Shown: positions 11,145-46,975 of the stretch, piece after piece
Layout: each line of letters starts with the position of its first letter
Numbering within the stretch: position 1 is the stretch's first letter
From: Dehalococcoidia bacterium
Lineage (GTDB): Bacteria > Chloroflexota > Dehalococcoidia > Lucifugimonadales > JAGWBF01
Length of the DNA: 64,000 nucleotides
Assembly (NCBI GenBank): GCA_021295955.1
Contig: JAGWBJ010000004.1
Span: 63,097 to 127,096, forward strand
Reading direction: 5' to 3'
Made by a program: the position numbers and the translations under genes
Notes under the pieces: generated by a model
Seen by the model: only the letters and a program-made list of their open reading frames with translations
What the model was told of the DNA's origin: nothing
Databases searched by the model: none

Positions 11145-11500
11145 TGCGGGCCGTCGACGTCGAAGAAGCGTCCTCCATCTGCATGGGCCGCTGCCGGGCC
11201 GCCTGCTGCCAGGGCCCGCTGGTGCTGCGGCTGAGCAGGGAGGAGGTCGACGACTTCAGGTCTAGGGCGGCGTCCCTGGGGCTTGGACCGGTGCGGGCCC
11301 GGACCCTGGAGGACGGCGGCGGCCTGGTGCGCTTTACGGACTACCCCGGGGACCGCTGTCCCATGCTGGACCCCGACACGTGGGCTTGCCGCATATACTC
11401 GCACCGCCCCGGCAGGTGCCGCGACTTCCCCGAGAGGCTGACGCCCGGCTGTCCCCTGTCCGAGGTGGTGTTCGGAGAGGACGACGCCGGCGGGGGCTAG
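11144..11500 (+). CDS. YkgJ-like cysteine-cluster protein
   Basis: This 118-residue protein begins with a CMGRCRAACC motif and continues with further cysteines in DRCPML, WACRIY, GRCRDFP and PGCPL. That arrangement matches the YkgJ/CxxCxxCC family, thought to bind zinc or an Fe-S cluster. ATG 11144 overlaps the last base of the MmgE/PrpD stop (TGATG), so the two are probably translationally coupled. GTG 11141 is also in frame. The biochemical role is unknown. Confidence 0.75.
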   Translation: MRAVDVEEASSICMGRCRAACCQGPLVLRLSREEVDDFRSRAASLGLGPVRARTLEDGGGLVRFTDYPGDRCPMLDPDTWACRIYSHRPGRCRDFPERLTPGCPLSEVVFGEDDAGGG

Positions 11501-11540: not shown

Positions 11541-11858
11541 TCACTCGGGCATGCCGGCGTCGATCCAGCGTTCGATTTCGGCGATCTCGTCCTCGGTCAG
11601 GAACGGGCCGCCCCGGGGCATCCTGGGGATCATGCCTACTCCCTTTCGAAGGAAGGTAACCAGGTGGGTCTCCCGGCCCGGCTTGCCCGGCTCGATTAGC
11701 TTGCGGCGGTAGGGGCTGCTTGCGGCCAGGTCCTGGGGCGTGTCCCAGTAGTACTCGTGAATCCCCGGGGCGGGAGGCCCGTGCTTGGCCTCCCAGGCGG
11801 CCATTGACTTTTCGAGCAGTTCCTTGACCCGAGGCCAGGTGACCGGCTGGTCCGACAT
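11541..11858 (-). CDS. Hypothetical protein with a cytochrome-c-like C-terminal helix
   Basis: The protein is 105 residues from ATG 11858 (GGGAG 5 bases upstream). I do not recognise a family for the whole. The end, LTEDEIAEIERWIDAGMPE, looks like the last helix of c-type cytochrome domains of planctomycete-type proteins, and MPRGGPF also appears in such domains, but there is no CxxCH haem site. It could be a cytochrome-derived domain that lost haem binding or an unrelated helical protein. A hairpin terminator separates it from the NHL gene upstream. Confidence 0.6.
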   Translation of the reverse strand: MSDQPVTWPRVKELLEKSMAAWEAKHGPPAPGIHEYYWDTPQDLAASSPYRRKLIEPGKPGRETHLVTFLRKGVGMIPRMPRGGPFLTEDEIAEIERWIDAGMPE

Positions 11859-11874
11859 TGGCACTCCCAAATCG

Positions 11875-11904
11875 GAAGCCCCCCGCAGGCCGCCGGGGGG
11901 CTTC
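11875..11904 (-). terminator. Rho-independent-type terminator after the NHL gene
   Basis: A perfect 10-bp stem (GAAGCCCCCC pairing with GGGGGGCTTC) encloses a 10-base loop. Read on the minus strand it lies 41 bases after the NHL gene stop and is followed by a short T-rich run (CTTCCGATTT). It separates that gene from the small minus-strand gene at 11858. Confidence 0.7.
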
Positions 11905-25297: not shown

Positions 25298-25322
25298 GGG
25301 AGGCGCCGTCCCCGATACGGAT

Positions 25323-25348
25323 CGCCCCAGGTAGGCACACCTGGGGCG
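25323..25348. terminator. Bidirectional hairpin terminator between convergent genes
   Basis: CGCCCCAGGT (25323-25332) and ACCTGGGGCG (25339-25348) form a perfect 10-bp stem with a 6-base loop. It lies between the plus-strand hypothetical gene and the minus-strand luciferase-like gene. There is no long T-run on either side. Confidence 0.65.
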
Positions 25349-25379
25349 AGGGCCGGTTCCCGTGTGCGGCCAGGGGAGG

Positions 25380-29296: not shown

Positions 29297-31486
29297 CTAC
29301 TGCTCCATCCCAGGCGCTGCGGGCTGGGACTGGCGCAGCGACTCCTGGGCGGCGAAGGTGGTCAGAGTCGTGGCGACGTATCCTTCGAAGGTCTCGTTCA
29401 GGGGCCGTCCCTCCACCAACGCCCGCGTAAGGGCTCGCACCTCCGCGGCGTGGCCCCAGTCGGGGCCGGTGCGCAGCTTCATCTTGCGTGTGCGGCCCCG
29501 GTGGGTGTAGCTGGCGGAGCGGAAGTTGTCGATGACCCCCACGGCCCCGCCGCCGAATACCTCGACGCGCTCCTTGGGGTAGCCCTTGTCCCCGCCCGCC
29601 GCGTAGCTGATGGAGGCTATGCCGCCGTCGGCCATCTTCAGGGTGATGGCCACGTTGTCCGTGGGGTCGTAGCCCGCCGAGGAGAGGGACTCGGCGTGGA
29701 CCCGTACGGGATGGGAGCCGGTGAGGAGCTGGACCAGGTCCACGAAGTGGCACACCTCGCCGATTATCCGCCCCCCGCCCTCCTCCGGGTCGTACGTCCA
29801 GTGGTCCAGGGGAAGCGGGCCCGCGTTCACCGTGTAGTGGACGGACATTGGCTCCCCGCACCGGGAGAACCGGTCCCTTAGCCACTGGACCGTGGAGGAG
29901 TACCGCCGGTTGAACCCCAGCATGAGGACCGGCGGCCTATCCATATCCCGGGATGCCCGGTACGCCTCCTCCACCCGCCCTAGCTGCCCCCGGTCCAGGG
30001 CTAGGGGCTTCTCCACGAAGACGTGCTTCCCCGACTCCAGGCAATCGGCGGTGATGGCGGCGTGGGAGCCGTGGCGGGTCAGTACGAACACCAGGTCGAC
30101 TTCAAGGTCCTGGATGATCTCCCGGTAGTTGGTGGCGCAGTAGTCGAAGCCGAACCTCTGGGCGGCGTGCCGGGCGCTCAGTCCCGTGGCCGCCGCGATG
30201 CCCCTGAGACTCAGCCCGGGCGTTTTCTTCAGTGCCGGGAGCATTGTGCTCCTGGCGAACAGGCCCCCGCCGATGACTCCAACCCCAAGCTCTGCCCTGC
30301 TGGACGGGGAGGGTCCGGTCTCCCGGCCCAGGCGGACTTTCCGGGAGACCGGTGGTGCTGACGACTGTTCGGGGTAGGTCAGGACGACCCCGACGCAGGG
30401 CTCGTCTCCCTCCAGGATGAGGCGGTATGCGTCCTGGGCCCGTTCCAGCGGGAACCGGTGGGTTATCAGGTCGTCCACGTGCACCCTGCCGCCCTCCAGG
30501 AGCCTGAGAAACTCCCCGATGTTCCGTCCCGCCGTCCACCTGGCGTAGCCGATGGGGTAGTCCAGGCCCCTGGCGGTGTATGCGGGATCGTAGACTCCGG
30601 GCCCCCATGCCCGGGAGACGACCAGCTCCAGCTCCTTGTCATAGAACGCCCGGCGGGGCACCTCCAGGCCCACTTGTCCGGTGGCGACGATGCGCCCCTT
30701 CTCGCGGCACAGCTCGGCCGCCTGCTCCATGGGCTCGTTGCTGTCCGAGGATGCCATTATTATCACCGCGTCCACCCCATTGCTCGAGGTGGCCCTGCGG
30801 CAGGTCGCGGCCAGGTGGTCGTAGTCGGTGGCGGCAGACTCGACGCCGCGGCCCAGGGCCATCTCCGCGCGCCGTGGGTCGATGTCCATGCCGATGACGT
30901 GACATCCGGCCGCCTTCAGCACCTGCACGGTGATCTGGCCCAACAGCCCCAGGCCCAGGACGACCACCGTGTCCCCCAGGCCCGCGTGGGCCACCCGTAC
31001 GGCCTCCAGGGCGATGCCCCCCAGGGCAGCGAAGGCCGCGGACTCCCCCTGCACGCCGGCGGGAATTCTCGCGCACAGGTTCGCCGGGACGGACGCCACC
31101 TCCTGGTGCCCGGCGTACCCCTGCCCGGTGCATGCCACCCGGTCGCCCACGGCCAGCCCATCGACCCCGTCTCCCACCTCCACTACCACTCCGGCCGAGG
31201 AGTACCCCAGGGCCACGGGGACGTCCAGCCTGCCCATGGCCTGCCGCCACGCCTCCAGCACGCCGTCGGCCTTCGCCTTGGCGATGACCCGCTTCACCAG
31301 GTCGGGGCGGGCCATAGCCTTGCCGATGAGGGACTTTTGGGCCAGCTCCATCATCGACCTCTCGGTGCCGCTGCTGACCAGCGACGCCGTGGTGCGCACC
31401 AGCACGTGCCCGCGCCCTGGAAGGCCCACGGGGACCACGTCGACGCTGAGCCGCCCCGTCCGGTAGTTTTGCGACACCTGTCTCAT
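29297..31486 (-). CDS. Bi-domain oxidoreductase: zinc-type dehydrogenase fused to Gfo/Idh/MocA
   Basis: The 729-residue protein has two enzyme domains. Residues 1 to about 370 form a medium-chain dehydrogenase (VALGYSSAGVVVEVG, GDRVACTGQGYAGHQEV, VVLGLGLLGQI for NAD(P) binding). Residues from about 400 form a Gfo/Idh/MocA dehydrogenase (GVGVIGGGLFARSTMLP, HVFVEKPLAL, GFNRRYS, GEVCHFVDLVQ). This fusion is known from sugar and exopolysaccharide clusters. ATG 31486 is preferred; GTG 31492 is in frame. It likely oxidises or reduces a sugar intermediate for the cluster that starts at 40518. Confidence 0.9.
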   Translation of the reverse strand: MRQVSQNYRTGRLSVDVVPVGLPGRGHVLVRTTASLVSSGTERSMMELAQKSLIGKAMARPDLVKRVIAKAKADGVLEAWRQAMGRLDVPVALGYSSAGVVVEVGDGVDGLAVGDRVACTGQGYAGHQEVASVPANLCARIPAGVQGESAAFAALGGIALEAVRVAHAGLGDTVVVLGLGLLGQITVQVLKAAGCHVIGMDIDPRRAEMALGRGVESAATDYDHLAATCRRATSSNGVDAVIIMASSDSNEPMEQAAELCREKGRIVATGQVGLEVPRRAFYDKELELVVSRAWGPGVYDPAYTARGLDYPIGYARWTAGRNIGEFLRLLEGGRVHVDDLITHRFPLERAQDAYRLILEGDEPCVGVVLTYPEQSSAPPVSRKVRLGRETGPSPSSRAELGVGVIGGGLFARSTMLPALKKTPGLSLRGIAAATGLSARHAAQRFGFDYCATNYREIIQDLEVDLVFVLTRHGSHAAITADCLESGKHVFVEKPLALDRGQLGRVEEAYRASRDMDRPPVLMLGFNRRYSSTVQWLRDRFSRCGEPMSVHYTVNAGPLPLDHWTYDPEEGGGRIIGEVCHFVDLVQLLTGSHPVRVHAESLSSAGYDPTDNVAITLKMADGGIASISYAAGGDKGYPKERVEVFGGGAVGVIDNFRSASYTHRGRTRKMKLRTGPDWGHAAEVRALTRALVEGRPLNETFEGYVATTLTTFAAQESLRQSQPAAPGMEQ

Positions 31487-31638
31487 AGTCACCTACTGGA
31501 GCGCTCCGCCGGGCCCGCCATACCCGTTGGACCGTCGAGCGCACCCATGATACCGTAGCCACCAGGGAGGAGGCCAAGGTCTCGTGCCCGTGCCCGTGGA
31601 TAAAGCCGGAAACGGGACGGGGCGCGGAGCATCGCTGG

Positions 31639-32907
31639 TCATGCGGCTTTGGCCCGGGCCGCGCGGCCCCTCCAGCCGGACACGATCTCCTGGAACCGGT
31701 CCTCCATCTCCGGCAGTAGCCTCCGTCGTTCGAACCGCTCCACGGCCGCGGCTCTGCCTGCCTCTCCCAGGCGCCTGCGCAAGTCGGAGTCCCGGAGGCC
31801 CATTATGCCCTGTGCCATCGCCTCAGGGTCCTGGGGGGCCACCACCAGCCCGCACCCGGTCTGGCGCACCAGGTCGGCCGCTTCTCCCTCCAGTCCCGCC
31901 AGGACCGGCCGCCCCGCGCTCATATAGTTGAGCAGCTTGGTGGGGATGGTGCCCTGCCGGAAGGGCGCCTTGTTCAGGTGCGTCAGGAGCACGTCCGCCG
32001 CCGACGTGAAGGCGGCCATGGCGGTCGCAGGCTTGGGCGGTATGAACCGTACGTTGTCCAGGCCGCCGTCCCCTGCCAGGGCGGCCAACCGGTCCCGGTC
32101 CGCCCCGCCCCCAACAAAAACCAGCAGCACGTCGTGTTCTCCCCGCTCCTTCAGCAGCCGGGCGGACTCGACGGCGGTGTCCAGTCCCTGGGCGAGGCTG
32201 ATGTTGCCCGTATACATGACGACCAACCTGTCGCCGAACCCGTACTCCCGGCGGACCTCCTCGGCCTCGTGCGCCGAGGCAGACTCGAAGAAGCACGTGT
32301 CCACCCACAGGGGATGCACCTCGGTCTTGCCCTCGGGCACGCCGGTCTCCACCACGTCCCCGCGCATCCGGTTGGAGTAGAAGTACAGGTAGTCGGCGGC
32401 GGAGTAGACGAAGCGCTCCAGCCCCAGGGCCAGGCGTATGGCGGTCCGCCCCTTGAGGACTCCGAGGTGGATCGGCTCCTGGGGCCACAGGTCGTGGACG
32501 TCGACCACCAGGGGCGCTCGAAACAGCCTGCTCAGCACGTACCCCGACACTCCAAGGAACAGGGGAGGCGAGTAGACGTAGACCAGATCGGGCCGGCCCG
32601 ACCTGACACCCCCGTACATCGACGTCAGCATGAAGGATAGGTGGTTCTTCATGCGGGGCCAGAAGTCGCGCCTGGACCTCGGGATGAAGAGGAAGGTGCG
32701 CGCTACTCTCACGCCCTCCCGTGTCTCCTCCCGGTACAGACGCCGCCGGTACCCGTCGTAGACCGCGCCGTCGGGGTAGTTGGGGAACCCCGTGACGACC
32801 GTAACGTCGTTCCCCCGGCCAGCCAGGTAGCCCGCCATCTCCGACACCTTCTGGGACGCCGACGCCGGTTCCGGTGGGTAGTATTGGGTCAGCAGCAGGA
32901 GCTTCAC
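31639..32907 (-). CDS. Glycosyltransferase family 4 (WbuB/WcaI-like)
   Basis: The 422-residue protein is a GT-B retaining glycosyltransferase. It starts MKLLLLTQYYPPEPASASQ, a WbuB-like opening, and contains SPPLFLGVSGYVLSR, DVHDLWPQEP near residue 140, VMYTGNISLAQGLDTAV near 230, and a donor-binding end with PTKLLNYMSAGRPVLAG. WbuB relatives transfer N-acetyl-fucosamine or similar sugars. The GTG start overlaps the stop of the upstream glycosyltransferase gene (GTGA). Confidence 0.9.
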   Translation of the reverse strand: MKLLLLTQYYPPEPASASQKVSEMAGYLAGRGNDVTVVTGFPNYPDGAVYDGYRRRLYREETREGVRVARTFLFIPRSRRDFWPRMKNHLSFMLTSMYGGVRSGRPDLVYVYSPPLFLGVSGYVLSRLFRAPLVVDVHDLWPQEPIHLGVLKGRTAIRLALGLERFVYSAADYLYFYSNRMRGDVVETGVPEGKTEVHPLWVDTCFFESASAHEAEEVRREYGFGDRLVVMYTGNISLAQGLDTAVESARLLKERGEHDVLLVFVGGGADRDRLAALAGDGGLDNVRFIPPKPATAMAAFTSAADVLLTHLNKAPFRQGTIPTKLLNYMSAGRPVLAGLEGEAADLVRQTGCGLVVAPQDPEAMAQGIMGLRDSDLRRRLGEAGRAAAVERFERRRLLPEMEDRFQEIVSGWRGRAARAKAA

Positions 32908-34061
32908 GCCCGGCCCGCCGCTCTCAGGGCCTGTTGGTACACCCTCTCGTGCGTCTCGGCGCACCGGGCGGGCGAGAACATCTCGCGGACCCATTCCCTG
33001 CCCCGAGCCGCCATTGATGCAGCTTGCTCCCCGTGCTCCAACAGCGACACGACCGCGGATGCTATGGCCTCCGGGTCCCGGGGAGATACCAGGATGCCTG
33101 TATTCCCGTCCTGGACGATCTCGGGAACGCCCCCCACGTCAGAGGCCACCACCGGCAGTCCCGCGGCCAGTCCCTCGGCTATCGCGATGCCAAAGGACTC
33201 GGAGAGGGACGGCTGTACCAGGATGTCCGCGGCGTGGAGGATGTCGGCAACGTCGGTGCGAAACCCCGCGAAGACCATCGCATCTCCGAGGCACAGAGTC
33301 CGGGCTTCGCTGTGAAGAACGTCTGCGTACTTCGTGCGTCCCTCGAGAGTCTGCCCCACGACGACGAACCGGGCCTCGGGGGACCTCTCCTTCACCGCCG
33401 CCGCGGCCCGTACGAAATACAGGTGCCCCTTGGTCGGGTACAGGTTGCCCACGGTGACGACCATCGGGGAGTCCTCGGGTATGCCCAGCTCGCCGCGTAC
33501 CCTGCTGCGGGTCCCGGGCTCGGCCGGGCCGGGGATGTCGACGGGGGGGTACAGGACCTCCACCGGCCTGTAGAACACGTCCCCCCGGGAGCCCATGTAC
33601 TCCCGGCCCATTGCCCGGGAGGACGCGGCCACAACGTGGGGGACCAGGTAGACCAGGGGCTTGAAGCTCTTCCAGACCAGGGGATAGGGCATTCCGTTGA
33701 TGTGCCACACGACCCCGCAGCCCGCCAGCCTGCCGGCGATGGCCCCCTGCACATGGGTAACGTCGTGCTGGTGTACCACGGAGATACCCTCGTCCCGTAT
33801 CAACCGGACCAGTCTTCGAATCGAGCCCCAGAGGTGCGCCAGCCATCCCAGGTGGGAGAGGGGGTTCACCGTCGCGCGGGGCCTCCTCATGCCCGGGACC
33901 CGGTGGTACGGGACCCCGGCTTCCTCCAGCATGTCCCCGAACGCCCCGGTACCGTGGGGGATGGCGACGACCGTGTCCACTCCACTGTGCTTCAACGCTG
34001 CCGCCATCCTCAGTATCCGCATCTGGGGACCGCCGACCCGGTCTTCGGCGATGATGTTCAA
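32904..34061 (-). CDS. Glycosyltransferase family 4
   Basis: The 385-residue GT-B enzyme begins with NIIAEDRVGGPQMRILRMA, has HQHDVTHVQGAIAGRLAG near residues 97-114, VVTVGNLYPTKGHLYFV near 204-220, and the donor site PSLSESFGIAIAEGLAAGLPVVASDVGGVPEIV near 285-317 containing the E-x7-E pair. TTG 34061 is the only conventional start near the first strand, and lies 11 bases before the end of the previous gene's stop, so the true initiation point is not certain. The sugar and acceptor are unknown. Confidence 0.88.
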   Translation of the reverse strand: MNIIAEDRVGGPQMRILRMAAALKHSGVDTVVAIPHGTGAFGDMLEEAGVPYHRVPGMRRPRATVNPLSHLGWLAHLWGSIRRLVRLIRDEGISVVHQHDVTHVQGAIAGRLAGCGVVWHINGMPYPLVWKSFKPLVYLVPHVVAASSRAMGREYMGSRGDVFYRPVEVLYPPVDIPGPAEPGTRSRVRGELGIPEDSPMVVTVGNLYPTKGHLYFVRAAAAVKERSPEARFVVVGQTLEGRTKYADVLHSEARTLCLGDAMVFAGFRTDVADILHAADILVQPSLSESFGIAIAEGLAAGLPVVASDVGGVPEIVQDGNTGILVSPRDPEAIASAVVSLLEHGEQAASMAARGREWVREMFSPARCAETHERVYQQALRAAGRA

Positions 34062-34071
34062 TACCCGCAGG

Positions 34072-35310
34072 CTACGCCCCCTTCAGCTCCCCGATGAGCC
34101 GAAGGTATTGCCTCGCGCTCTCGCGCCAGCTCCCCATGGACTCCACGCGCCGCCTGCCGTTCTCGCCCATCCGTGCGCGCTCTTTCTCGTCTCGAAGCAG
34201 GCGCAGAATAGCGCTCCCCACGGCGTCGGCATCTGCCCGAGGCGCCAGGAGGCCCGTTTCGCCGTGGGCCACCGCCTCGGTGGTGCCCATCACGTCGCAC
34301 CCGACCACGGGCTTGCCAAAGGCCCCGGCCTCTGCGAACACCAGGCCGAACCCCTCTACGGCGGACGGCATGGCGAACACGTCGCAGGCATCGTACAGGG
34401 CGAATTTCTCGGACTCGGAAACCGTTCCCAGGAACGTAACGGCGCCTTGCAGGCCTGGTGGCAGCACGGCTTTGACCGTGCGCTCCAGCTCGGCCCTGTA
34501 CGGCCCGTCTCCCGCCACGACGTAGCGGGCGTCGGGGTACTCGGCAAGGATTCGCGGCATGGCGCCAATGACCCACTGGGCGCCCTTGTATTCGATTAGC
34601 CTCGCAACCGTGAGGATGACAGGGCGATGTCCGCTGGGATATGCGCGCTCTCTTAAAGTGCTCATCGCCTCGCCGGCCCGTGCGGCATCTTCTCGCCAGG
34701 CGTCCACGGCGTCGACGTCGACGGCGTTCGGGATGACGGTGGTGCGGACGCGTTTCGAGGGTATGAAGTTGGTCACGTCGGCCTCGGTGTCCCTCGACAC
34801 GCACACGTTCGCGTTTGCCGCCCGCAGGATGAAGTGCAAGATCCACTTGCGCCGGCGCCAGTTCAACCCCGGACCTGTGTCGCGGGCCACGTGGTGAATA
34901 GTCTGGACAACCGGAATGCGTGCCGCCTTTGCCACCAGGCAGCAGGCTGCGACCATGGACGGGGACTGATTGGCGACTATGTACTCGGCCCGGCTCCGGC
35001 GGACCGCACGGTACAGGTCCCACACAAAGCGGAGCCGTCCCAACACGAGGGATGGACTGTTCCACTGCCCCGAACCCAGAGACGCGCCATGGACCCGCTC
35101 GATGGGATAGCCGCAGGTGGCCTCGAACCGTTCCATTTCCTGAGGCTCTGGGCACCAATCGTGCTGGGTCGTAGGATGCGGGCAGGATGTAGCAACGAAC
35201 GTGATGTCTTCGCCCAATCTGGCCAGGTGTCTCGCTATCTGGTGGGCGTGCACTTCCCCACCCCCAACGTGGGCGCCGCAAAGGTAGGATGCCATCACTC
35301 CGGTGCCCAT
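34072..35310 (-). CDS. Glycosyltransferase family 4
   Basis: The 412-residue GT-B enzyme has GAHVGGGEVHAHQIARHLARLG at the start, IIHHVARD-like acceptor loop (TIHHVARD) near residue 138, VILTVARLIEYKGAQWVI near 230-247, and PSAVEGFGLVFAEAGAFGKPVVGCDVMGTTEAV near 316-348 for donor binding. ATG 35310 has AGGTAGGA 8 bases upstream; ATG 35295 is also possible. Its start follows an intergenic space with the dispersed repeat, so it could head a separate transcript from the genes further upstream. Confidence 0.88.
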   Translation of the reverse strand: MGTGVMASYLCGAHVGGGEVHAHQIARHLARLGEDITFVATSCPHPTTQHDWCPEPQEMERFEATCGYPIERVHGASLGSGQWNSPSLVLGRLRFVWDLYRAVRRSRAEYIVANQSPSMVAACCLVAKAARIPVVQTIHHVARDTGPGLNWRRRKWILHFILRAANANVCVSRDTEADVTNFIPSKRVRTTVIPNAVDVDAVDAWREDAARAGEAMSTLRERAYPSGHRPVILTVARLIEYKGAQWVIGAMPRILAEYPDARYVVAGDGPYRAELERTVKAVLPPGLQGAVTFLGTVSESEKFALYDACDVFAMPSAVEGFGLVFAEAGAFGKPVVGCDVMGTTEAVAHGETGLLAPRADADAVGSAILRLLRDEKERARMGENGRRRVESMGSWRESARQYLRLIGELKGA

Positions 35311-35398
35311 GGACGCATCCTACCTTTCTCGGGCCGGCACGCCCAGCCTGTCAGGTGCTTCGGCTCCCTGCCTACCGTCACTCCGGCCCCGTCCCTAC

Positions 35399-35498
35399 CG
35401 TCATTCCGGCCCCCGAGCCGGAATCCAGGGGTGGGGAGCATAGACTCCCACGTTCGGAGACTGTGGTATACGCGGCATATCCGCGAAAGCGGGTATCC
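35399..35498. repeat. Dispersed palindromic intergenic repeat, copy B
   Basis: This is the fullest copy. It has a perfect inverted repeat ATTCCGGC-CCCCGA-GCCGGAAT (35403-35424), the tail CCAGGGGTGGGGAG, and a second hairpin with an 8-bp stem and GAAA tetraloop (35477-35496). It fills much of the gap 35311-35513 between two glycosyltransferase genes. Confidence 0.7.
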
Positions 35499-35513
35499 AA
35501 AGGCCTAGGTTTG

Positions 35514-36587
35514 TCAGGCGACGAGACTGCGGAGGTCCCGCGCGACTCGGTCATACCAGGGCCCGCTCCGAAAGAACTCCCCCCGCTCCTTGGCCCCGAC
35601 GCATAGCCGCCGATATAGTTCGGGGTCGTTCAGTATCCGATCGATCGCGGCCTTCAGACTGTCGACGGAACCTGGTTCTACCAGCAGGCCGTTTTCCTCG
35701 TGCTGGACAACTTCAGGGATGGCGCTGAACATGGTGGCAATCACGGGGACGTGGCACTGGAAGGCTTCCACGATGATCCCCGGATGACCTTCTCCTGGGT
35801 AAAAGGTGGGCAGCAGCAGCAGGTCGTGCTCCGAGAGCACTCGTGGGACATCTGCGGGGTCCAGTATACTGCGATGGGTCGCCTTGGGATGCCCATCGAA
35901 TACCGCCATGTCGAATCCGAAGCTGGGCGGCCCATAGACGTAAAGGTGGCATTGTTCGGGCAGAGAACGGCAAGCCTCCAGGAGCTCATATATCCCTTTT
36001 CGCGAGTCCAATCGCGATATGAAGACCAGGTTTCGGACGCTGTCCCTGGGTCCGGTCTCCGGAGGCTTGATATCTCTCGTGTTTGGCAGCCACCTAAAAT
36101 CAGCGAATTCGGGAAAGCCTCCAATGATCTGTTGGGTCTCGACGTACACACGCTCAGACCGCAGCCAGGTCCATCGAGACAGCCGCCGGAGGGACTTCGG
36201 GTAGGTGCGGCCAAGGCTGCCGCCGAAGAACCGGACCGCCAGAGGCCGACGCATCAGTCTGCAAATGGTCCAGACAACAAACACCGACGCGGGTACGCGT
36301 GGGTAGGGGGCCGTGTTCAGGAACACCAACCGGGAACGCCAGCCATGCCTCGGGACTCTCCAGCACAGGAGCAGCAACATCAGGGCCTTGATGAGCCAAC
36401 GGAGCCAGACTATGCCCACTCCATCGGCGTTGAACCAGAACCACGGGTGAAGGACCCTCACGTCGAAGCCCCGTGTTCTTAGTTCTTCGACCGTTTTCGC
36501 GAAGAGTACTTCGGCCCCTCCGATGTTGGTCGTGAGTAAAGGCGGCCCAATGCAAAGGATTCTGATGGACTTGTTCTGTTGGCCCAT
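35514..36587 (-). CDS. Glycosyltransferase family 4, base composition shifted
   Basis: The 357-residue enzyme has TNIGGAEVLFAKTVEELRTRG near residues 20-40, a hydrophobic segment near 62-75, RFFGGSLGRTYPKSL near 118, LVFISRLDSRKGIYELLEAC near 186-205, and the donor-site block HPGIIVEAFQCHVPVIATMFSAIPEVV. These mark a GT-B family 4 enzyme. Base use is visibly more AT-rich than in the flanking genes, which may reflect recent transfer of a specificity gene. It lies downstream of the exporter gene by 26 bases. Confidence 0.85.
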   Translation of the reverse strand: MGQQNKSIRILCIGPPLLTTNIGGAEVLFAKTVEELRTRGFDVRVLHPWFWFNADGVGIVWLRWLIKALMLLLLCWRVPRHGWRSRLVFLNTAPYPRVPASVFVVWTICRLMRRPLAVRFFGGSLGRTYPKSLRRLSRWTWLRSERVYVETQQIIGGFPEFADFRWLPNTRDIKPPETGPRDSVRNLVFISRLDSRKGIYELLEACRSLPEQCHLYVYGPPSFGFDMAVFDGHPKATHRSILDPADVPRVLSEHDLLLLPTFYPGEGHPGIIVEAFQCHVPVIATMFSAIPEVVQHEENGLLVEPGSVDSLKAAIDRILNDPELYRRLCVGAKERGEFFRSGPWYDRVARDLRSLVA

Positions 36588-36613: not shown

Positions 36614-38410
36614 CTACGTGGAAGAGGCCACCAGGCGTGAGTAGTGGCCCTGCCGTTCCAGCAGCTCCTCGTGGCTTCCCTCCTCTATCACCTCACCCTG
36701 GTCCAGGACCACGATCTTGTCGGCGTATCGGATGGTGGACAGGCGGTGGGCTATGATGATCACCGTGCGGTCCCTGGATACGCTGTGGATCGCCTCCTGC
36801 ACCAGCCTTTCGGACGCGGTGTCCAGGGAGCTGGTCGCTTCGTCGAAGATCAGTATCTCCGGCGAGCTCAGCACGGCCCTGGCTATGGCCAGGCGCTGCT
36901 GCTGTCCCCCGGAAAGCTTCATCCCCCGGTCTCCGATGACGGTGTCGTAGCCCTCGGGCAGCTCCAGGATGAACCCGTGGGCGTTGGCGGTCTTCGCCGC
37001 CTGGACGACGGACTCGGTGGAGTGGGCGTTCCTGCCGAAGACGATGTTGTCGACCACGCTGGAGTTGTGGATGAAGGGGTCCTGGCTCACCAGCCCTATG
37101 CTGCCCAGCCAGGCGCTCTGCTTCAGCTCGTCCAGGGGCACGCCGTCGACGGTGACCCTGCCCCCGTCGGGCTGGAACAGGCCCAGGACCAGGTTGATGA
37201 GGGTGGTCTTCCCCGCTCCCGAGGGTCCCACCACGGCCGTCACCTTGCCCTTCTCGAACGTCAGGTCCACGCCCTTCATCAGCGGCTCCCTCCCCCGGTG
37301 GGCAAAGGAGACGTTCTCGAAGGCGATGCCCCGTTCCAGCCGGTCCAGGACCACCGTCCCGTCGGGCCTCTTGGGCACCAGACTGGTCATCGCCAGGTGC
37401 GCCAGGTCCACGTCGGGCAACAGCCCCATTGTCTCTATGCGCAGGCGTCCAAAGGAGGTCAGGGCCGGCAGCATCTGCACCAGAGCCATGGCGAAGACCC
37501 CCAGCTTGGGCAGGAGGTCCACCAGGTCGCCGGGGCTGAGGGTCTTGATGGACAGGACGAAGCCCAGCATCACCAGGACCGCCGAGACCTCCATCAGGGG
37601 CCTGGGGATGGCCATCCAGCCCATGAGCCTGCCGTGGGCCTCGGCGTGGTCCCTGGTCTGCCGGTCGAAGCGCTTGGCCCACTGGCCGGTGACCCCCAGC
37701 GCTATGATCTGGCGAATGCCGCTGATGAGCTCGTTGGCGATGACGTTCTGCTCGGCCCCTGCGGCGGCCCTCCTCCGGCCCAGGTTGAAGGATACGGTCC
37801 TGGACAGGTGGTGAATCAGGACGTAGTAGAGGAGCCCAAGGCAGACGAACGGCAGAAACCCCATGGGGAATATGAGGCCCAGTACGACGGCTATGGTCAC
37901 CACCCTCAGCAGGAAGGCCGTCATCTGGGGCCCCCTGAGGAGCAGCAGACCCACCGCCATCGGGGCAGTCAGGCCGTTGTAGAGCAACGTGCCCTGCCGG
38001 TTGTCCAGGAAGAACTGGTACTGACCCGAGGCGTACCGGTCCATTATCTCGCTCTGCACTGTGTACAGCACCTTGCCGCTGGTGTAGGCGGTTAACGCCT
38101 CCAGCGCCACGGTGAAAAGGGTCTTGGCGACGAAGAGGGCCATGAGCAGCACCGAGGCGGCGACCAGCGGGTCCGAGAGGGGCACCAGACCGGCCATGTC
38201 CTGGAAGAACGCAAGGACGCTGCCCGTCTGGTCTTCGGAGCTGCCCAGAAGAGACGAGAATACTGGAAGGAAGGCGGCTACGCTGAGGCTTTCCAGGACG
38301 GAGGTGGTCAGGATCAGCATCAGGATCGATCCGGTGAGCAGCTTGTAGCGCCCCAGGAAGTAGAGGACCGCGGTGTACCGCGGGCCGCTAGCGTCGGCTC
38401 TTTCGCTCAC
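36614..38410 (-). CDS. ABC exporter, fused membrane and ATPase domains (PglK/MsbA-like)
   Basis: The 598-residue half-transporter has an N-terminal six-helix domain (helices visible between about residues 20 and 300) and a C-terminal ATPase: Walker A GPSGAGKTT, signature LSGGQQQR, Walker B EILIFDEATSSLD and switch His in IIAHRLSTIR. Within a glycosyltransferase cluster it probably flips a lipid-linked oligosaccharide, as PglK does, or exports a lipid. The GTG start overlaps the HAD gene stop (GTGA). The longer open frame upstream is not coding. Confidence 0.9.
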   Translation of the reverse strand: MSERADASGPRYTAVLYFLGRYKLLTGSILMLILTTSVLESLSVAAFLPVFSSLLGSSEDQTGSVLAFFQDMAGLVPLSDPLVAASVLLMALFVAKTLFTVALEALTAYTSGKVLYTVQSEIMDRYASGQYQFFLDNRQGTLLYNGLTAPMAVGLLLLRGPQMTAFLLRVVTIAVVLGLIFPMGFLPFVCLGLLYYVLIHHLSRTVSFNLGRRRAAAGAEQNVIANELISGIRQIIALGVTGQWAKRFDRQTRDHAEAHGRLMGWMAIPRPLMEVSAVLVMLGFVLSIKTLSPGDLVDLLPKLGVFAMALVQMLPALTSFGRLRIETMGLLPDVDLAHLAMTSLVPKRPDGTVVLDRLERGIAFENVSFAHRGREPLMKGVDLTFEKGKVTAVVGPSGAGKTTLINLVLGLFQPDGGRVTVDGVPLDELKQSAWLGSIGLVSQDPFIHNSSVVDNIVFGRNAHSTESVVQAAKTANAHGFILELPEGYDTVIGDRGMKLSGGQQQRLAIARAVLSSPEILIFDEATSSLDTASERLVQEAIHSVSRDRTVIIIAHRLSTIRYADKIVVLDQGEVIEEGSHEELLERQGHYSRLVASST

Positions 38411-39066
38411 CCTGCACCCTTCTCCGGCATTCCGCCCGTGGTCGACAGGATGATGTCCGCTGCCCCGGCCAGGTCCGGGGCGGACAGGACGCCCCGGTGC
38501 TGTTTCGCGGGGGAGGCGCCCACACGGATGCCGCGGACCCCGGCGGCCCGGGCGGCGTCCATGTCCCCCTGCCGGTCTCCCACCATGAACGACCGGGACA
38601 TGTCCACCCCCCAACGAGCGGCCGCGGTCACCAGCATTCCGGGCTGCGGCTTACGGCACCCGCACTGCACGTCGTAGGCGGCCAGCGCCGCGCCGGGGCG
38701 GTGGGGGCAGTAGCAGATTCCGTCTAGGAAAGCGCCCCTGGAGTAAAGGCGCCCGGCCATCTCCCGGTGGACCTCCAGCAGGCCGGCCTCGGTGATCAGC
38801 CCCATCCCCACGGCCGCCTGGTTGGTGGCCACTATGACCAGGTACCGCTCCTGGAGGCGGGCGACGGCCTCGGGGACGTGGGGCAGGACGCATAGCTGGC
38901 CGGGATGGGTTACGTTGCCCACCTCCTCGACGATCACGCCGTCCCGGTCCAGGAACACCGCGGGGCTGGCGGACCCGGGGCCGGGCCTTGCCGGCCGGCT
39001 GTCGTCGGGATAGGAGGGGATGTGGATGTTGCCCTCCAGGCGCACCATTCCGGAGAGGCGTTTCAC
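38407..39066 (-). CDS. HAD-IIIA phosphatase, GmhB type (heptose bisphosphate phosphatase-like)
   Basis: The 219-residue protein has the HAD nucleophile motif VFLDRDGVIVEEVGNVTHP near residues 37-55, VATNQAAVG near 78-86, the zinc-site cysteines in CYCPHRP and CGCRKPQPGM near 118-144, and VGDRQGDMDAARAAG. This is the layout of GmhB, which removes the 7-phosphate of heptose bisphosphate. No other heptose gene is visible, so the substrate may be another sugar bisphosphate. The start is GTG 39066 or ATG 39048; both are plausible. Confidence 0.85.
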   Translation of the reverse strand: MKRLSGMVRLEGNIHIPSYPDDSRPARPGPGSASPAVFLDRDGVIVEEVGNVTHPGQLCVLPHVPEAVARLQERYLVIVATNQAAVGMGLITEAGLLEVHREMAGRLYSRGAFLDGICYCPHRPGAALAAYDVQCGCRKPQPGMLVTAAARWGVDMSRSFMVGDRQGDMDAARAAGVRGIRVGASPAKQHRGVLSAPDLAGAADIILSTTGGMPEKGAG

Positions 39067-39230
39067 GACGTTACCTGACGCCCTGGGCGTTCATCATCTT
39101 CTGCGCCGGCAAGCCCCATGTCCGTCGGTTGGGAGCGGTCTTGGGCAATGCTCCGCCCATCGCCTCGCCTGTGCCGTCGAGGCGCGCGCCTGGGTCTCCC
39201 ATCCATTGCCCCTACCCATGGGCCCTATCG

Positions 39231-39255
39231 GCGCAACGGCCCGCTGCCGTTGCGC
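39231..39255 (-). promoter_or_regulatory. Perfect hairpin downstream of the NusG-like gene; candidate antitermination signal
   Basis: GCGCAACGGC and GCCGTTGCGC pair perfectly over 10 bp with a 5-base loop. The hairpin begins 22 bases after the NusG-like stop, on the transcript that continues into the exporter and glycosyltransferases. It has no T-run, so it is unlikely to be a simple terminator. The surrounding gap (39067-39276) has further palindromes (CCCATGGG, GGCGCGCGCC) and no gene. Specialised NusG proteins such as RfaH and LoaP act through leader hairpins; the link here is inference. Confidence 0.4.
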
Positions 39256-39276
39256 GTATCCGTGGCCGGCTGGCGT

Positions 39277-39843
39277 CTAGACCCCGGCCCCTACACCGTC
39301 GGGCGCCATCCTGCCGTATCCCGTGACCCAACCGGGGACCGTTCCAGAGCGGGTCGCCACATCCAGGTCAGTCGGGTCCAGGGTGGTCGGCAGCCGCCTG
39401 CCCAGCCAGTTGAGAAACACCTCGCACCGGTCCCCGGAGGGAAGGTATCTCTTGAACAGGGCATCAAGGCCCCTGAGGGGTCCCGACTTGACGTGGACCC
39501 GGTCGCCCCCGCGGAAGGCCTGGCCGTAGCCGCCCTGGTTCCATACCTGGACCCGCGACCGGACCTCCTCCACGGCGTCCTCGCCAATGGGGGACGGCCT
39601 CTCCCGCGCCGGCAGGAAGTAGGTGACCCCCGGAGTCCACATCGCCCGGGACCAGCGCTCTGGGTCGTCGCTGCTCACCCGGCAGAAGAGGTAGCCCGGG
39701 AACAGCTCCTCCCAAGCGGTCGCGCCCCTCTTGACCACGGCGATCCGGGGGTTGTACACCTCGCAGCCCCAACGGCGCATGTGCTTCTCCACCAGCGCCG
39801 ACCGGTTCCGCTTGACCCTCGCAACGTACCAGTCATGGGGCAT
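39277..39843 (-). CDS. Specialised NusG paralogue (RfaH/LoaP/UpxY-like antiterminator)
   Basis: The 188-residue protein has an N-terminal NGN domain (WYVARVKRNRSALVEKHMRRWG near residues 5-26, LFPGYLFCRV near 47-56, TPGVTYFLPA) and a C-terminal KOW-type domain (FRGGDRVHVKSGPLRGLDALF near 109-129). Housekeeping NusG sits with secE and rpl genes; this one heads a polysaccharide operon, like RfaH and UpxY, so it probably promotes read-through of that operon. A Pro/Gly tail follows. Its ATG overlaps the regulator gene end by 11 bases. Confidence 0.82.
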   Translation of the reverse strand: MPHDWYVARVKRNRSALVEKHMRRWGCEVYNPRIAVVKRGATAWEELFPGYLFCRVSSDDPERWSRAMWTPGVTYFLPARERPSPIGEDAVEEVRSRVQVWNQGGYGQAFRGGDRVHVKSGPLRGLDALFKRYLPSGDRCEVFLNWLGRRLPTTLDPTDLDVATRSGTVPGWVTGYGRMAPDGVGAGV

Positions 39844-40447
39844 TGGAGTCCTCCGTAGCCCCGGGCAGCAGGGAGACGATCCTGTCCGGCTGGATGCCCA
39901 GGTCTCGTAGATGGCCCCGCTTCTCCTCCACGCCGTCCAGCGCGGCTATGATCACCCGGTCGTGGTCCGTTGGGGGCGATGCTTCCACGTCCCGCACGTG
40001 GGCGCCCAGGAACTTGCCGTTGGCCGGCGTGGAGGGGCCGTAGATGTCGATCTCTTCGATGCCGGCCTCCCGGAGCGCCAGATAGACCAGCTCCGCCAGC
40101 TCGCCCGTCCCGAATATCGCCACACGGGACTCGGCGTGCAGCTCCAGGGGGGCCAGCTCCTGCCGGAGGGTCTGGCGAATGGTCTGGTAGTGGCCCAGGA
40201 ACCTCTGGATGTAGGAGACGGTGAGCTGTACCTTGCGGGTAAACCCCTTGGGCGTTAGAGCGTACAGGCGTCGTTTCCACCTGGCGCGGGTGACGCGAAT
40301 GTACCCCTTCTGGGCCAGGTTGCGCACCAGCGCGTTGGTCAGCCCCAATGCGATTCCCAGCCTGCGGGACAGGTCCCGCTGGGTCACGTCGGGAGCGTCG
40401 TACACCTCGGTCAGGAGCTTGAGCTGCCGGTAGCTCGACGTCTCCAT
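39833..40447 (-). CDS. HTH regulator fused to a Rossmann-like sensor domain
   Basis: The N-terminal winged helix (TQRDLSRRLGIALGLTNALVRNLAQKG, then RRLYALTPKG) resembles the EPS-associated MarR-family regulators. The C-terminal half is a Rossmann-like domain, RVAIFGTGELAELVYLAL with ID-IYG and RVIIAALDG, similar to the N-terminal domain of PglD-type acetyltransferases or a nucleotide-sugar binding fold. Such a regulator could sense a sugar nucleotide or dinucleotide. I chose ATG 40447 (CAGGA upstream) because a promoter maps just before 40477. ATG 40477 would add ten residues and be nearly leaderless. It is the first gene of the cluster and overlaps the NusG-like gene. Confidence 0.75.
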   Translation of the reverse strand: METSSYRQLKLLTEVYDAPDVTQRDLSRRLGIALGLTNALVRNLAQKGYIRVTRARWKRRLYALTPKGFTRKVQLTVSYIQRFLGHYQTIRQTLRQELAPLELHAESRVAIFGTGELAELVYLALREAGIEEIDIYGPSTPANGKFLGAHVRDVEASPPTDHDRVIIAALDGVEEKRGHLRDLGIQPDRIVSLLPGATEDSNAP

Positions 40448-40458
40448 CGGGTCCTGGT

Positions 40459-40473
40459 GTTCACTTCGTGAAC
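40459..40473. promoter_or_regulatory. Palindromic candidate operator
   Basis: GTTCAC-TTC-GTGAAC is a perfect 15-base palindrome about 9 to 23 bases after the predicted transcription start of the regulator gene. Further half sites (GTGAAC at 40562-40567, ATTCAC near 40586) lie in the same divergent gap. It would suit autorepression by the winged-helix protein. Confidence 0.45.
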
Positions 40474-40488
40474 TCATGACTCTGGTTG

Positions 40489-40518
40489 ATATTAATGACG
40501 CCTGGAACTGGATGTCAA
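40489..40518 (-). promoter_or_regulatory. Strong sigma-70-type promoter of the polysaccharide regulator operon
   Basis: On the minus strand, TTGACA (40518-40513) is followed after 18 bases by TAATAT (40494-40489). This is one of the best promoter matches in the window and faces the HTH-Rossmann and NusG-like genes. Confidence 0.65.
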
Positions 40519-40601
40519 GCGCTTTCGGTTCGAATAATGAACAACAATTTTCGGTTGTACAGTGAACCCATGAACGTTACGGGCCATTCACTTGACGTTA
40601 C

Positions 40602-40630
40602 TTGACACCCGCTGGTTCGATGGTCAAAAT
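40602..40630 (+). promoter_or_regulatory. Candidate promoter of the amidase operon
   Basis: TTGACA (40602-40607), a 17-base spacer and CAAAAT (40625-40630) lie 36 bases before the amidase start. A second ACTTGAC ten bases upstream forms a direct repeat with the -35 element. Confidence 0.45.
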
Positions 40631-40665
40631 AGGTATCCGTCGACGGCGACGTGACAGGAGGCGGC

Positions 40666-42072
40666 ATGGACAGAGCCGACATACCGTACCTATCGGCCGG
40701 TGACCTCTCCAGGCTCATCGAGAAGAGGGAGGTCTCCCCAGTGGAGGCCGCCGAGGCCTACCTGGACCGCATCGACGACCTGGACTTCAAGTTCAACGCC
40801 TACCTGACCGTGTGCCGCGACCTGGCCATGGACGCTGCCCGGGAGGCCGAGAGGGCCATCGTGGCGGGCAACCACCTGGGCCCCATGCACGGCGTCCCCG
40901 TGGCCGTCAAGGACCAGTTCTGGAGCAAGGGCATCCGCTCCACCGGCGGGTCACGGATCCTGATGGACTTCGTTCCCGACGACGACGCCACGGTGATTGC
41001 CAACCTGAAGAAGGCCGGAGCGGTCCTGCTGGGCAAGACCAACGTCACCGAGTTCGCCGTCACCGGCTTCACCCACCGGTTCAGCACACCGCGGAATCCC
41101 TGGGACCTGGACCGATACACGGGTGGCTCCAGCGGCGGTTCCGGGGCCGCGACGGGGGCGTTCATGTGCGCCACCTCCCTAGGGGAGGACACCGGCGGCT
41201 CCATACGCTGCCCGGCCACCTGGTGCGGCCTGGTGGGACACAGGCCCTCCTGGGGCAGGGTCAGCCGGTATGGTGTCATGCGCGGAGTGTGGTCCATGGA
41301 CGCCGTCGGGCCCATCTCCAGGACCGTGGAGGACGCGGCCATCACCCTGGGGGCCATCGCTGGTCAGGACCCCAAGGACCCCTACACCTGGGACACCCCC
41401 GTCCCCGACTACCGGGCCTCCCTGGACGGGGACGTGAGGGGAATGAAGGTGGGCGTCATCTCGGAGATCATGCACAGCGACCTGGTGGAGCCCGAGGTCC
41501 GCGACGTGGTATCCCAGGCGGCTGCGGTCCTGCGGGGGCTGGGGGCAACTGTGGAGGAGGTGTCCATACCACTGTCCACCGCGGCCAGCGCCGTGTCGGG
41601 GACGTTGCTGGGAGTGGAGCCCGCCGCAACTCACCGCAAGTGGATGCGGGAGCGGCTGCAGGACTACGGGCACGACAACCGCATCGGTCTCTTGGTGGGC
41701 AGCATCATGCCGGCCCAGGCCTACTACAAGGCCCAGAAGCTCAGGTCCATGGTCAAGGACCAGGTGCACGCTGCGCTGGACACCTACGACGTGCTGGTCC
41801 TCCCGACCAGCGGCAGGCCGGCCCCCGAGGTGGAGGACGACCCGGTCGTCACCAGCAAAGAGACCTCCTCCAGGCTGGCGTTCCTTTTCACCCGCATCTT
41901 CAACCTCGCCAGCGCCCCGGCCCTGTCAGTGCCCTGCGGGTTCACCTCCGGCGGCCTCCCCATCGGTATGCAGATCGGTGGCCGTCCCTTCGGAGACGAC
42001 GTGGTGCTGAAGGTGGCCCACGCCTACGAGCAGGCCACACCCTGGCACACCATGAGGCCGACCCATGCCTAG
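40666..42072 (+). CDS. Amidase signature family protein
   Basis: The 468-residue enzyme has the Ser-cisSer-Lys triad of the family: Lys82 in VAVKDQF, Ser155/156 in TGGSSGGSGAATG, and Ser179 in GEDTGGSIRCPA. It would hydrolyse an amide (or act as GatA-like subunit, but no gatB is near). ATG 40666 has AGGAGG 5 bases upstream; GTG 40651 overlaps nothing useful. The next flavoprotein gene starts 8 bases before its stop, so they are co-translated. The substrate is unknown. Confidence 0.9.
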   Translation: MDRADIPYLSAGDLSRLIEKREVSPVEAAEAYLDRIDDLDFKFNAYLTVCRDLAMDAAREAERAIVAGNHLGPMHGVPVAVKDQFWSKGIRSTGGSRILMDFVPDDDATVIANLKKAGAVLLGKTNVTEFAVTGFTHRFSTPRNPWDLDRYTGGSSGGSGAATGAFMCATSLGEDTGGSIRCPATWCGLVGHRPSWGRVSRYGVMRGVWSMDAVGPISRTVEDAAITLGAIAGQDPKDPYTWDTPVPDYRASLDGDVRGMKVGVISEIMHSDLVEPEVRDVVSQAAAVLRGLGATVEEVSIPLSTAASAVSGTLLGVEPAATHRKWMRERLQDYGHDNRIGLLVGSIMPAQAYYKAQKLRSMVKDQVHAALDTYDVLVLPTSGRPAPEVEDDPVVTSKETSSRLAFLFTRIFNLASAPALSVPCGFTSGGLPIGMQIGGRPFGDDVVLKVAHAYEQATPWHTMRPTHA

Positions 42073-45811: not shown

Positions 45812-46975
45812 TTGGTCCGGTTCCTGACGGCCGGAGAGTCCCACGGGCAGGGGTTGGTGGTCATCGTCGAGGGCGTCCCGGCGGGACTCCGCCTGGACGA
45901 AGACTACATCGGCGCCCACCTGGCCCGGCGGCAGCGGGGCTACGGCCGGGGCGGCCGGATGCTCATCGAGCGGGACCGGGCGGTCATCCTCTCGGGTGTG
46001 CGCCATGGCCTGACCCTGGGGAGCCCCATCGGGATGACCCTGGAGAACCGCGACTGGGTCAACTGGCAGGAGTCCATGAGCGTCGTTCCCGTGGAGGGCG
46101 AGGTGGCGCGGATTACCCGGCTGCGCCCGGGCCACGCCGACCTCCCGGGGGCCATGAAGTACGGCTTCCAGGACGTGCGCAACGTCCTGGAACGGGCCAG
46201 CGCCAGGGAGACGGCGGCCCGGGTAGCCGCGGGAGCCGTGGCCCTGAGGCTGCTGGAGGAGTTCGGCATCGAGCTCCATAGCCACTCCATATCCATAGGC
46301 GGCGTGTGGGCCAGTCCTCGCGAGCCCATCGACTGGCAGGTCGTCGAGGAGTCCCCCGTGCACTGCGCCGACGCCGAGGCCGGGCCTCGGATGATGGCGG
46401 TCATCGACCAGGCCAAGGAAGCCGGCGACACCGTCGGCGGCGTGGTGGAGGTGGTGGCCACCGGCGTGCCCATAGGCCTGGGATCCCACGTACAGTGGGA
46501 CAGGAGGATAGACGGCCTCATCGCCCAGGCCCTCATGTCCATCAACGCCGTAAAGGCCGCCTCCATCGGCGAGGGGTGGGAGTCGGTGGACCGGATGGGC
46601 TCCCAGGTCCACGACGTGATAGAGCCGGTGACGGACCCCTCCCGGCCCTGGCAGCGACGGACCAACCGGTCCGGCGGCACCGAGGGGGGGATGACCAACG
46701 GCATGCCCCTGGTGGCCCGGTTTGCCATCAAGCCCATATCCACACTGGTCAAGCCGTTGCCGTCGGTGGACCTGGACACGGGCGAGGTGGTCCAGGCCCA
46801 CTACGAGCGCTCCGACGTATGCCAAGTGCCGCCGGCCGGGGTCATCGGCGAGGCCATGGTGGCCCTGGTGCTTGCCGACGTCTTGATGGAGAAGTTCGGC
46901 GGCGACAGCGTCGAGGAGACCCGCCGCAACCACCTGGCCTACCTGGAGACGGTGGGCCCGCGGAGGGGCCCGTAG
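45812..46975 (+). CDS. aroC: Chorismate synthase
   Basis: AroC converts 5-enolpyruvylshikimate 3-phosphate to chorismate with reduced FMN. Signatures are RFLTAGESHGQGL at the N-terminus, RRQRGYGRGGRMLIERD near residues 37-53, GVRHGLTLGSPI, RPGHADLPGAMKYG near 107-120, RASARETAARVAAGAVA, and SGGTEGGMTNGMPLV near 287-301. TTG 45812 is preferred over GTG 45806 because GGGAGG (45801-45806) is correctly spaced only for the TTG. The length of 387 residues is normal. Confidence 0.94.
   Translation: MVRFLTAGESHGQGLVVIVEGVPAGLRLDEDYIGAHLARRQRGYGRGGRMLIERDRAVILSGVRHGLTLGSPIGMTLENRDWVNWQESMSVVPVEGEVARITRLRPGHADLPGAMKYGFQDVRNVLERASARETAARVAAGAVALRLLEEFGIELHSHSISIGGVWASPREPIDWQVVEESPVHCADAEAGPRMMAVIDQAKEAGDTVGGVVEVVATGVPIGLGSHVQWDRRIDGLIAQALMSINAVKAASIGEGWESVDRMGSQVHDVIEPVTDPSRPWQRRTNRSGGTEGGMTNGMPLVARFAIKPISTLVKPLPSVDLDTGEVVQAHYERSDVCQVPPAGVIGEAMVALVLADVLMEKFGGDSVEETRRNHLAYLETVGPRRGP

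Follow-up and report, generated by a model that had tools for sequence, protein, structure and literature searches.

Is a bacterial polysaccharide operon controlled twice, once at its promoter and again beyond the gene of a NusG protein that the operon itself encodes? The question is raised by an operon in the window, by which we mean the whole stretch of 64,000 nucleotides that was analysed, a part of contig C21 in a 2.56-Mb MAG (SAR202-type Chloroflexota). The original prediction, read from the letters of this stretch, was of control in two coupled layers, with an HTH-Rossmann sensor, a NusG paralogue and a perfect 10-bp hairpin placed ahead of exporter, phosphatase and glycosyltransferase genes.

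Organization of the locus

Every part named in that prediction is present on the minus strand, with a correction of order in that the phosphatase gene precedes the exporter gene: the operon runs from a predicted promoter through genes for the HTH-Rossmann regulator, the NusG paralogue, a HAD phosphatase, an ABC exporter and four GT4 glycosyltransferases (Table 1). The 3' end of the regulator gene and the start of the NusG gene have 11 bp in common, and a gap of 210 nt separates the NusG gene from the HAD phosphatase gene. No terminator-like site was found in positions 38900-40800, and no terminator was identified from NusG to the next gene. Gene calls made by script are simple longest-ORF calls, and masked bases (N) in some stretches of L029, L014 and L177, three of the loci compared, give a few X residues. 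Beyond the genes of Table 1, an ORF at 29297-31492 fuses a zinc alcohol dehydrogenase to a Gfo/Idh/MocA oxidoreductase, and the divergent ORF at 40651-42072 is presumably amidase-like, on the strength of a GGSSGGSG stretch that we take to be the motif of such proteins.

Table 1 Features of the predicted polysaccharide operon in the window, numbered from the first letter of the window
Feature	Position	Strand	Remarks
Candidate operator O2, GTTCATTATTCGAAC	40528..40542	-	5' of the -35 box
Predicted promoter TTGACA-18-TAATAT	40489..40518	-	-10 box stops 11 nt upstream of ATG
Candidate operator O1, GTTCACGAAGTGAAC	40459..40473	-	spans codons 2-7 of the regulator gene
HTH-Rossmann regulator gene (P0001)	39833..40477	-	214 aa; MarR_2 / HTH_24 and Rossmann domain matches
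NusG paralogue gene (P0002)	39277..39843	-	188 aa; NGN and KOW-type C-terminal part
Perfect 10-bp hairpin, 5-nt loop AGCGG	39231..39255	-	21 nt 3' of the NusG stop
Element B, ops-like, GGCGGAGCATTGCC	39144..39157	-	sole exact match to GGCGRAGCNTTGCC in the window
HAD phosphatase gene	38407..39066	-	GmhB / histidinol-phosphatase-like profile matches
ABC exporter gene	36614..38614	-	MsbA/HepA/PglK-like; actual start probably within the ORF
Four GT4 glycosyltransferase genes	31639..36587	-	profile matches

The HTH-Rossmann regulator

The regulator consists of a MarR_EPS-like winged helix (approximately residues 14-111) and a Rossmann domain (approximately residues 113-207). It scores 34.6 bits with PF12802 (MarR winged helix), above the cut-off of 27, and 66.1 bits with MarR_EPS TIGR04176, under the equivalog cut-off of 88; the latter cut-off was exceeded in none of the 193 genomes searched, and the TIGR04176 winged helix is matched by all 42 members of the regulator alignment A1. 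A Rex-type N-terminal DNA-binding domain is not among the Pfam matches of the regulator at E <= 0.1, where the HTH matches are to MarR families.

There are 597 homologues of P0001; in the best 120, which were listed, MRSxxE is found near the N-terminus of 99, and the closest named kin among these listed matches are from MAGs of SAR202, Dehalococcoidia and other Chloroflexota. A search for closer relatives in viral contigs found none. The window regulator begins with MSSRSE, which is disordered in the structure model, and close homologues are annotated from a start about ten residues further in.

Because earlier fold lists had been taken up by the HTH half or by loose full-length matches, the Rossmann half was folded alone. 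The ligand-binding type of fold that had been proposed for it is borne out by the resulting model (pLDDT 91), which has structure matches to Rex, WbaP and PerB-like proteins. Foldseek with this model gave a single PDB chain at E 0.001, a Rossmann profile had no significant match among PDB sequences, and PglD_N is matched weakly, by 9 of 57 members at E <= 0.1. Across 57 sequences from several phyla, the first glycine of the loop and the next glutamate are invariant and several neighbours are nearly so. We infer that the Rossmann domain binds a metabolite.

Conservation of the regulator-NusG pair

A near-full-length homologue of the regulator is encoded in 12 of 97 genomes of relatives (the window's own genome apart), one of them ending at a contig edge. 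Linkage to NusG was counted over 80 named loci and the loci of relatives, after removal of same-contig repeats (L002, L034, L037-L041, L066, L114 and L115) and with L031, a 124-aa fragment, kept outside the phylum table; distances were measured to the NusG open frame rather than to its start codon. The proposed search for the HTH-Rossmann fusion beside NusG in other genomes proved positive: of the 13 Chloroflexota loci that offer 1.7 kb of room or more, 12 have a same-strand NusG frame no further than 100 bp past the regulator. In Nitrospirota such a frame follows at 1.1 kb or less in 22 of 26 loci (at 100 bp or less in 11 of them), as it does in the single Methylomirabilota locus. No NusG adjoins the regulator in Acidobacteria (0/12 loci with room), Rokubacteria (0/13), Omnitrophota (0/5) or other phyla (0/4), which suggests that the sensor is able to work alone, and none was seen in the short loci L179-L203. 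In the closest metagenomic homologues, contig sizes are equal for regulator and NusG (1931, 24806 and 5517), which fits linkage there too.

Downstream in 12 Chloroflexota loci, genes for sugar-nucleotide enzymes abound: the 69 proteins encoded there include 14 Epimerase, 10 UDP-glucose/GDP-mannose dehydrogenase, 5 GT2 and 3 NeuB matches.

A candidate operator at the promoter

The promoter of the window operon is flanked by two exact copies of a palindrome (O1 and O2). An exact GTTC-N7-GAAC was found within 230 nt of the regulator start in 14 of 15 Chloroflexota loci (window counted), compared to 0.04 expected from shuffles, and in 60 of 71 loci of other phyla, compared to 0.2 expected; the palindrome was first spotted by eye in the Chloroflexota loci, and the loci of other phyla served as the test. 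The consensus of 89 sites is TGTTCA-N5-TGAAC.

In 11 Chloroflexota loci the palindrome begins at codon 2 of the regulator gene, where ATGCGTTCnnnnnnnGAAC codes for the N-terminus MRSxxE. Codon 2 is CGT in 10 of these 11, compared to 32 of 193 arginine codons elsewhere in the same genes, and codon 6 is GAA in all 11, compared to 78 of 162 glutamate codons elsewhere; codon choice at the N-terminus of the regulator follows the operator. The same 11 loci have a TTGAC[AT] / TATAAT-like promoter, of which the -10 box ends only 6-13 nt 5' of the ATG, and no clear Shine-Dalgarno sequence, so the regulator mRNA is probably leaderless, that of the window probably being leaderless or nearly so. The palindrome is located further upstream, within or close to promoter-like sequence, in L022, L023 and L029; L030 has neither the operator nor NusG.

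Eleven loci of other phyla (two of them, L080 and L214, near-identical), in which the regulator has no site of its own, have two or three tandem palindromes approximately 5.5-12 kb upstream at the operon head, and in six of the 11 the tandem copies sit around a TATAAT box. In 16 extended loci (236 kb) there are 28 palindromes compared to 4.2 expected, a count that takes in chance-like sites within genes; an exact GTTCA-N5-TGAAC is present outside called genes in 10 of the 16 and not in the other 6. An operator is close to the regulator in 9 of the 25 loci L179-L203, which, like L204-L219, share some of their contigs with counted loci and so are not an independent sample. Three tandem operators around TATAAT head operons that include the regulator in L210, L213, L216, L219, L061 and L075, and in several of these a similar leader stretch, TGTGACTGAG...GCCGGAGGC, then follows.

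A third match to the palindrome is present elsewhere in the window, a total to which 3 of 100 shuffled windows also came. Across the genome, the palindrome by itself shows no enrichment, with 13 sites compared to 10 in a reversed control. The case for an operator therefore rests on position and conservation. The second GTTCA-N5-TGAAC of the genome, on contig C22, lies inside a roughly called ORF and was taken as chance. We infer that the HTH-Rossmann protein binds the palindrome, whose overlap with the -10 box and the start site argues for repression; most likely this protein represses its own gene and senses a metabolite of the sugar-nucleotide or NAD type.

Other Chloroflexota (L116-L143) have a shorter regulator, of approximately 159 aa, that includes no more of the Rossmann domain than its first half, and there is no NusG inside those short loci. 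Sites resembling AATTCA-N5-TGAATT lie over a TATAAT box there, and a loose TTCA-N5-7-TGAA is close to the regulator gene in 17 of 28 loci. That a similar operator accompanies half a Rossmann domain would suit the alternative that this domain is a relic that serves dimerisation only, the regulator responding through its winged helix as ordinary MarR proteins do, and so would the weak PglD_N matches and the lone PDB chain; dimerisation would not need the invariant glycine and glutamate of the loop, however, and we consider a relic unlikely.

The NusG paralogue and the window hairpin

The NusG protein of the window scores 53.1 bits with PF02357 (cut-off 22.2). The genome has two NusG matches, the stronger on contig C26 (101.9 bits, the housekeeping nusG) and the other on C21 (54.7 bits), so the window protein is a paralogue and the specialised NusG of the original prediction is upheld.

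The perfect 10-bp hairpin exists as described, 3' of the NusG gene, but it is not a conserved signal in the loci compared. No perfect 10-bp hairpin was found 3' of NusG in 12 other Chloroflexota loci, and the sequence of the window hairpin occurs once in its genome and does not match the model of element A (below). It was also excluded as an intrinsic terminator, lacking a T run. The window has 4 perfect hairpins of at least 10 bp compared to 0.35 expected under an order-1 Markov model, so these are not a mere consequence of base composition, and approximately 222 kb of the genome (the window and 9 further stretches) have 25 of at least 9 bp. The other three in the window are of 11 bp (25322-25349, 11875-11904 and 46166-46192), the first of them approximately 30 nt past a luciferase-like monooxygenase gene and without a T run.

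Element A, a candidate leader RNA in relatives

A motif search of the 400 nt 3' of the NusG stop in 13 loci, the window among them, found a common 16-mer, TYGTAGCCnnnGCTCC, with a score of 162 compared to 117-126 in eight shuffled sets. It forms the top of a 38-nt stem-loop, element A, with the core YGTAGCNNNNGCTCC, which follows NusG in 9 of 12 Chloroflexota relatives (alignment A6); the motif search fitted no element A after NusG in the window, L021, L024 or L026. Pairing was counted in 13 instances, from the nine loci, one of which has A twice, and from three that were identified later, these being also the sequences from which the structure was derived: 85.8% of cells are paired compared to 68.3% in shuffles, none of 500 shuffles being as high, and alignments slid out of register reach at most 49%. 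In the outer stem all 10 pairs show two-sided changes, each in at least one sequence, whereas the three inner pairs do not vary; RNAalifold, which draws the inner part differently, itself gives 7 pairs with two-sided changes. An Rfam scan gave nothing in the window and only tRNAs in 14 loci.

A covariance model of element A has 26 matches, in 22 of 395 genomes. Thirteen are training sites; of the 13 new matches, 5 lie directly after NusG and 4 in the leaders of other, unlinked genes, the last 4 being weak or ambiguous. The genome of the window has none, the best score near the locus being 8.8 bits. Three genomes without A beside the paired NusG (G039, G003 and G015) do have a copy at another place, which precedes an epimerase gene in L264, a UDP-sugar dehydrogenase gene in L280 and again an epimerase gene in L271, and the genome of L280 has a further A after a second NusG (L268). 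The unlinked leader L271, in G015, contains in order a promoter, an exact operator GTTCATGTCATGAAC, A, a B-like stretch and the epimerase gene. That A recurs before unlinked sugar-nucleotide genes suggests that it belongs to leaders as a module and is not a peculiarity of the NusG 3' end. In L035, two successive copies of A (11268-11305 and 11586-11623), each with a B-like element behind it, accompany one NusG gene.

Most SAR202-order NusG paralogues that adjoin the regulator have an arginine-rich C-terminal tail, such as RRTRGKGRWI; the window protein and seven close homologues from the protein database (P0123-P0129) have C-termini that resemble ATRSGTxPGWVxGYGR or are similar, and lack the arginines of that tail. 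Of 30 paralogue loci, 27 are untruncated (L232, which has a regulator, L238 and L248 end less than 60 nt from NusG), and these fall into just four types: tail, regulator and A in 13, tail and regulator with no A beside NusG in 3, tail and A with no regulator visible in 2, and none of the three in 9. Element A thus accompanies 15 of 18 tailed paralogues and 0 of 9 tail-less ones, in a tally for which the tail search expression was relaxed between two counts after the sequences had been inspected; 9 of the 13 loci with all three features are discovery loci, and L239 and L241 are near-identical. In G001, from the window's own family, A lies at the end of a tailed NusG and is followed by an ABC exporter gene of the window's exporter type; this NusG (L233, L259) was matched in two pieces and the regulator is on a separate contig, so that the pair is not directly seen.

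Element B and other leader motifs

A second element, B, follows in many of the same leaders. Its pattern, GGCGNAGC, which comprises 7 fixed bases and a loose extension, is present after NusG in 7 of 12 Chloroflexota relatives. With the window counted, 8 of 13 loci have it no more than 150 nt past the NusG stop, compared to 0.25 expected; this count includes L022, L027, L035 and L036, where B was first noticed by eye. Twelve of 21 A sites have B 65-78 nt 3' of A and one has a looser form at 117 nt; the remaining 8 have no B by this pattern. Among six later tailed loci, the pattern is present in L231, L239, L241 and L242, a looser form in L229 and none in L233. Pairing between GCTCCG of A and CGGAGC of B was considered and found unsupported, since B changes to CGAAGC while A is constant.

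We call B ops-like by comparison with what we take to be the E. coli ops sequence, GGCGGTAGCGTGC. That sequence as such occurs in the window about as often as chance predicts (44 matches compared to 42 expected) and has no match at up to 3 mismatches 3' of NusG there; GGGCGGTAGCGTC in L054 holds most of it. A different motif, the 26-mer TGTAAGTGAGAGGGCGAAGCTGTGTC or a form with at most 8 mismatches, is found 32-1358 nt past the regulator stop in 28 of 30 Nitrospirota loci. Acidobacteria have such a form 5' of the regulator in 9 of 14 loci, all 16 Rokubacteria loci lack it, and there are no reverse-strand matches. The 26-mer is nearly invariant, lies mostly between regulator and NusG (for example at 10648 in L078 and 10612 in L091), and is possibly a JUMPstart-like signal.

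In the window, the second layer is divergent: it retains B but neither A nor the arginine tail, and where relatives have A there is a plain, strong hairpin, followed by B. This hairpin may have taken the place of A, or it may be incidental. The prediction of two coupled layers is supported in relatives by the gene pair, the operator, covarying A and ops-like B, and is not borne out in the 12 loci compared for the hairpin that it named; as judged from these sequences, the family supports the idea better than the copy in the window does.

A probable two-step switch and its alternatives

As a whole, the best explanation, to which we give a probability of roughly 60%, is a two-step switch made of a self-repressing sensor and read-through by its own NusG. 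Regulator and NusG paralogue are predicted to be made under one promoter. The regulator would occupy its operators and repress that promoter until a metabolite is sensed by the Rossmann domain; once it has left these likely operators, the same mRNA would also supply NusG. Signals 3' of the NusG gene (in relatives, A and B) would recruit this NusG, which would then take RNA polymerase onward into the predicted polysaccharide genes, with read-through as the outcome.

It is improbable, in our estimation, that the operon simply co-expresses two independent regulators, the HTH protein being an autorepressor, NusG being general or acting elsewhere, and the hairpin being a 3'-end or mRNA-stability structure. 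Regulators without a neighbouring NusG are common, as such an arrangement would have it, and a hairpin that is unique in a genome where perfect hairpins are frequent would be no surprise; the close pairing of regulator and NusG in two phyla, the co-occurrence of A, B and the arginine tail at one place and the recurrence of A in unlinked leaders argue against it. That A is instead a small metabolite-binding (riboswitch-like) leader RNA, or a ribosome or RNase signal, with no part in NusG recruitment, is decidedly doubtful: it is a compact hairpin with an invariant core and a covarying outer stem before sugar-nucleotide genes, but at 38 nt it is small for a known riboswitch, and its presence tracks the arginine-tailed type of NusG.

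Returning to the two-step switch, it may represent an undescribed module with a cross-phylum operator code, an operator set within the first codons of the regulator in SAR202, a new class of leader RNA (A and B) read by the arginine-rich tail of NusG, and both its own and unlinked sugar-nucleotide operons as targets; this fuller reading is tentative and falls a little short of an even bet. It would join a candidate RNA signal with strong covariation and a candidate partner for it, the tail, to a switch at the level of initiation at the same promoter. To our knowledge, polysaccharide regulation has been little studied in the phyla concerned. The operator code and the RNA model lend themselves to direct tests in vitro and to the mapping of regulons in the genomes of uncultured bacteria; for Nitrospira, a transcription start overlapping the operator is predicted.

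Comparison with known systems

Among DNA-binding regulators, MarR_EPS TIGR04176 shares the winged helix and the polysaccharide context, and differs in being a model of 105 positions without a Rossmann domain. Rex differs in its DNA-binding part, the window regulator having a MarR-type winged helix, and the window operator is unlike the one that we take to be that of Rex.

Among NusG paralogues, RfaH (TIGR01955) gives the best NCBIfam score with the window protein, 67.1 bits, under the cut-off of 144.5; B resembles ops, without a match to ops proper after NusG in the window at up to 3 mismatches. LoaP of Bacillus is a NusG paralogue with a leader RNA hairpin, dfn, of UNCG type (PMC12691694). 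The combination of paralogue and leader hairpin is shared, whereas the loop of the window hairpin is AGCGG, the core of element A is of a different kind from UNCG, and the window NusG scores 40.3 bits with NF033641, compared to a cut-off of 125.

A search of titles and the beginnings of abstracts, mostly in journals outside subscription, found no publication on the HTH-Rossmann and NusG pair. UpxY of Bacteroides is a NusG paralogue encoded at the head of its own capsule operon, and an HTH-Rossmann partner is not mentioned in the accessible parts of the two sources (PMC7593976, PMC7819879). How NusG paralogues encoded within their own target operons are recruited was called unknown in 2020 (PMC7593976). 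The window NusG gene likewise stands at the head of a predicted polysaccharide operon; its product scores 34.3 bits with NF033644, compared to a cut-off of 100. UpxY, according to PMC7819879, acts on leaders 5' of its own gene, whereas A and B lie 3' of the NusG gene.
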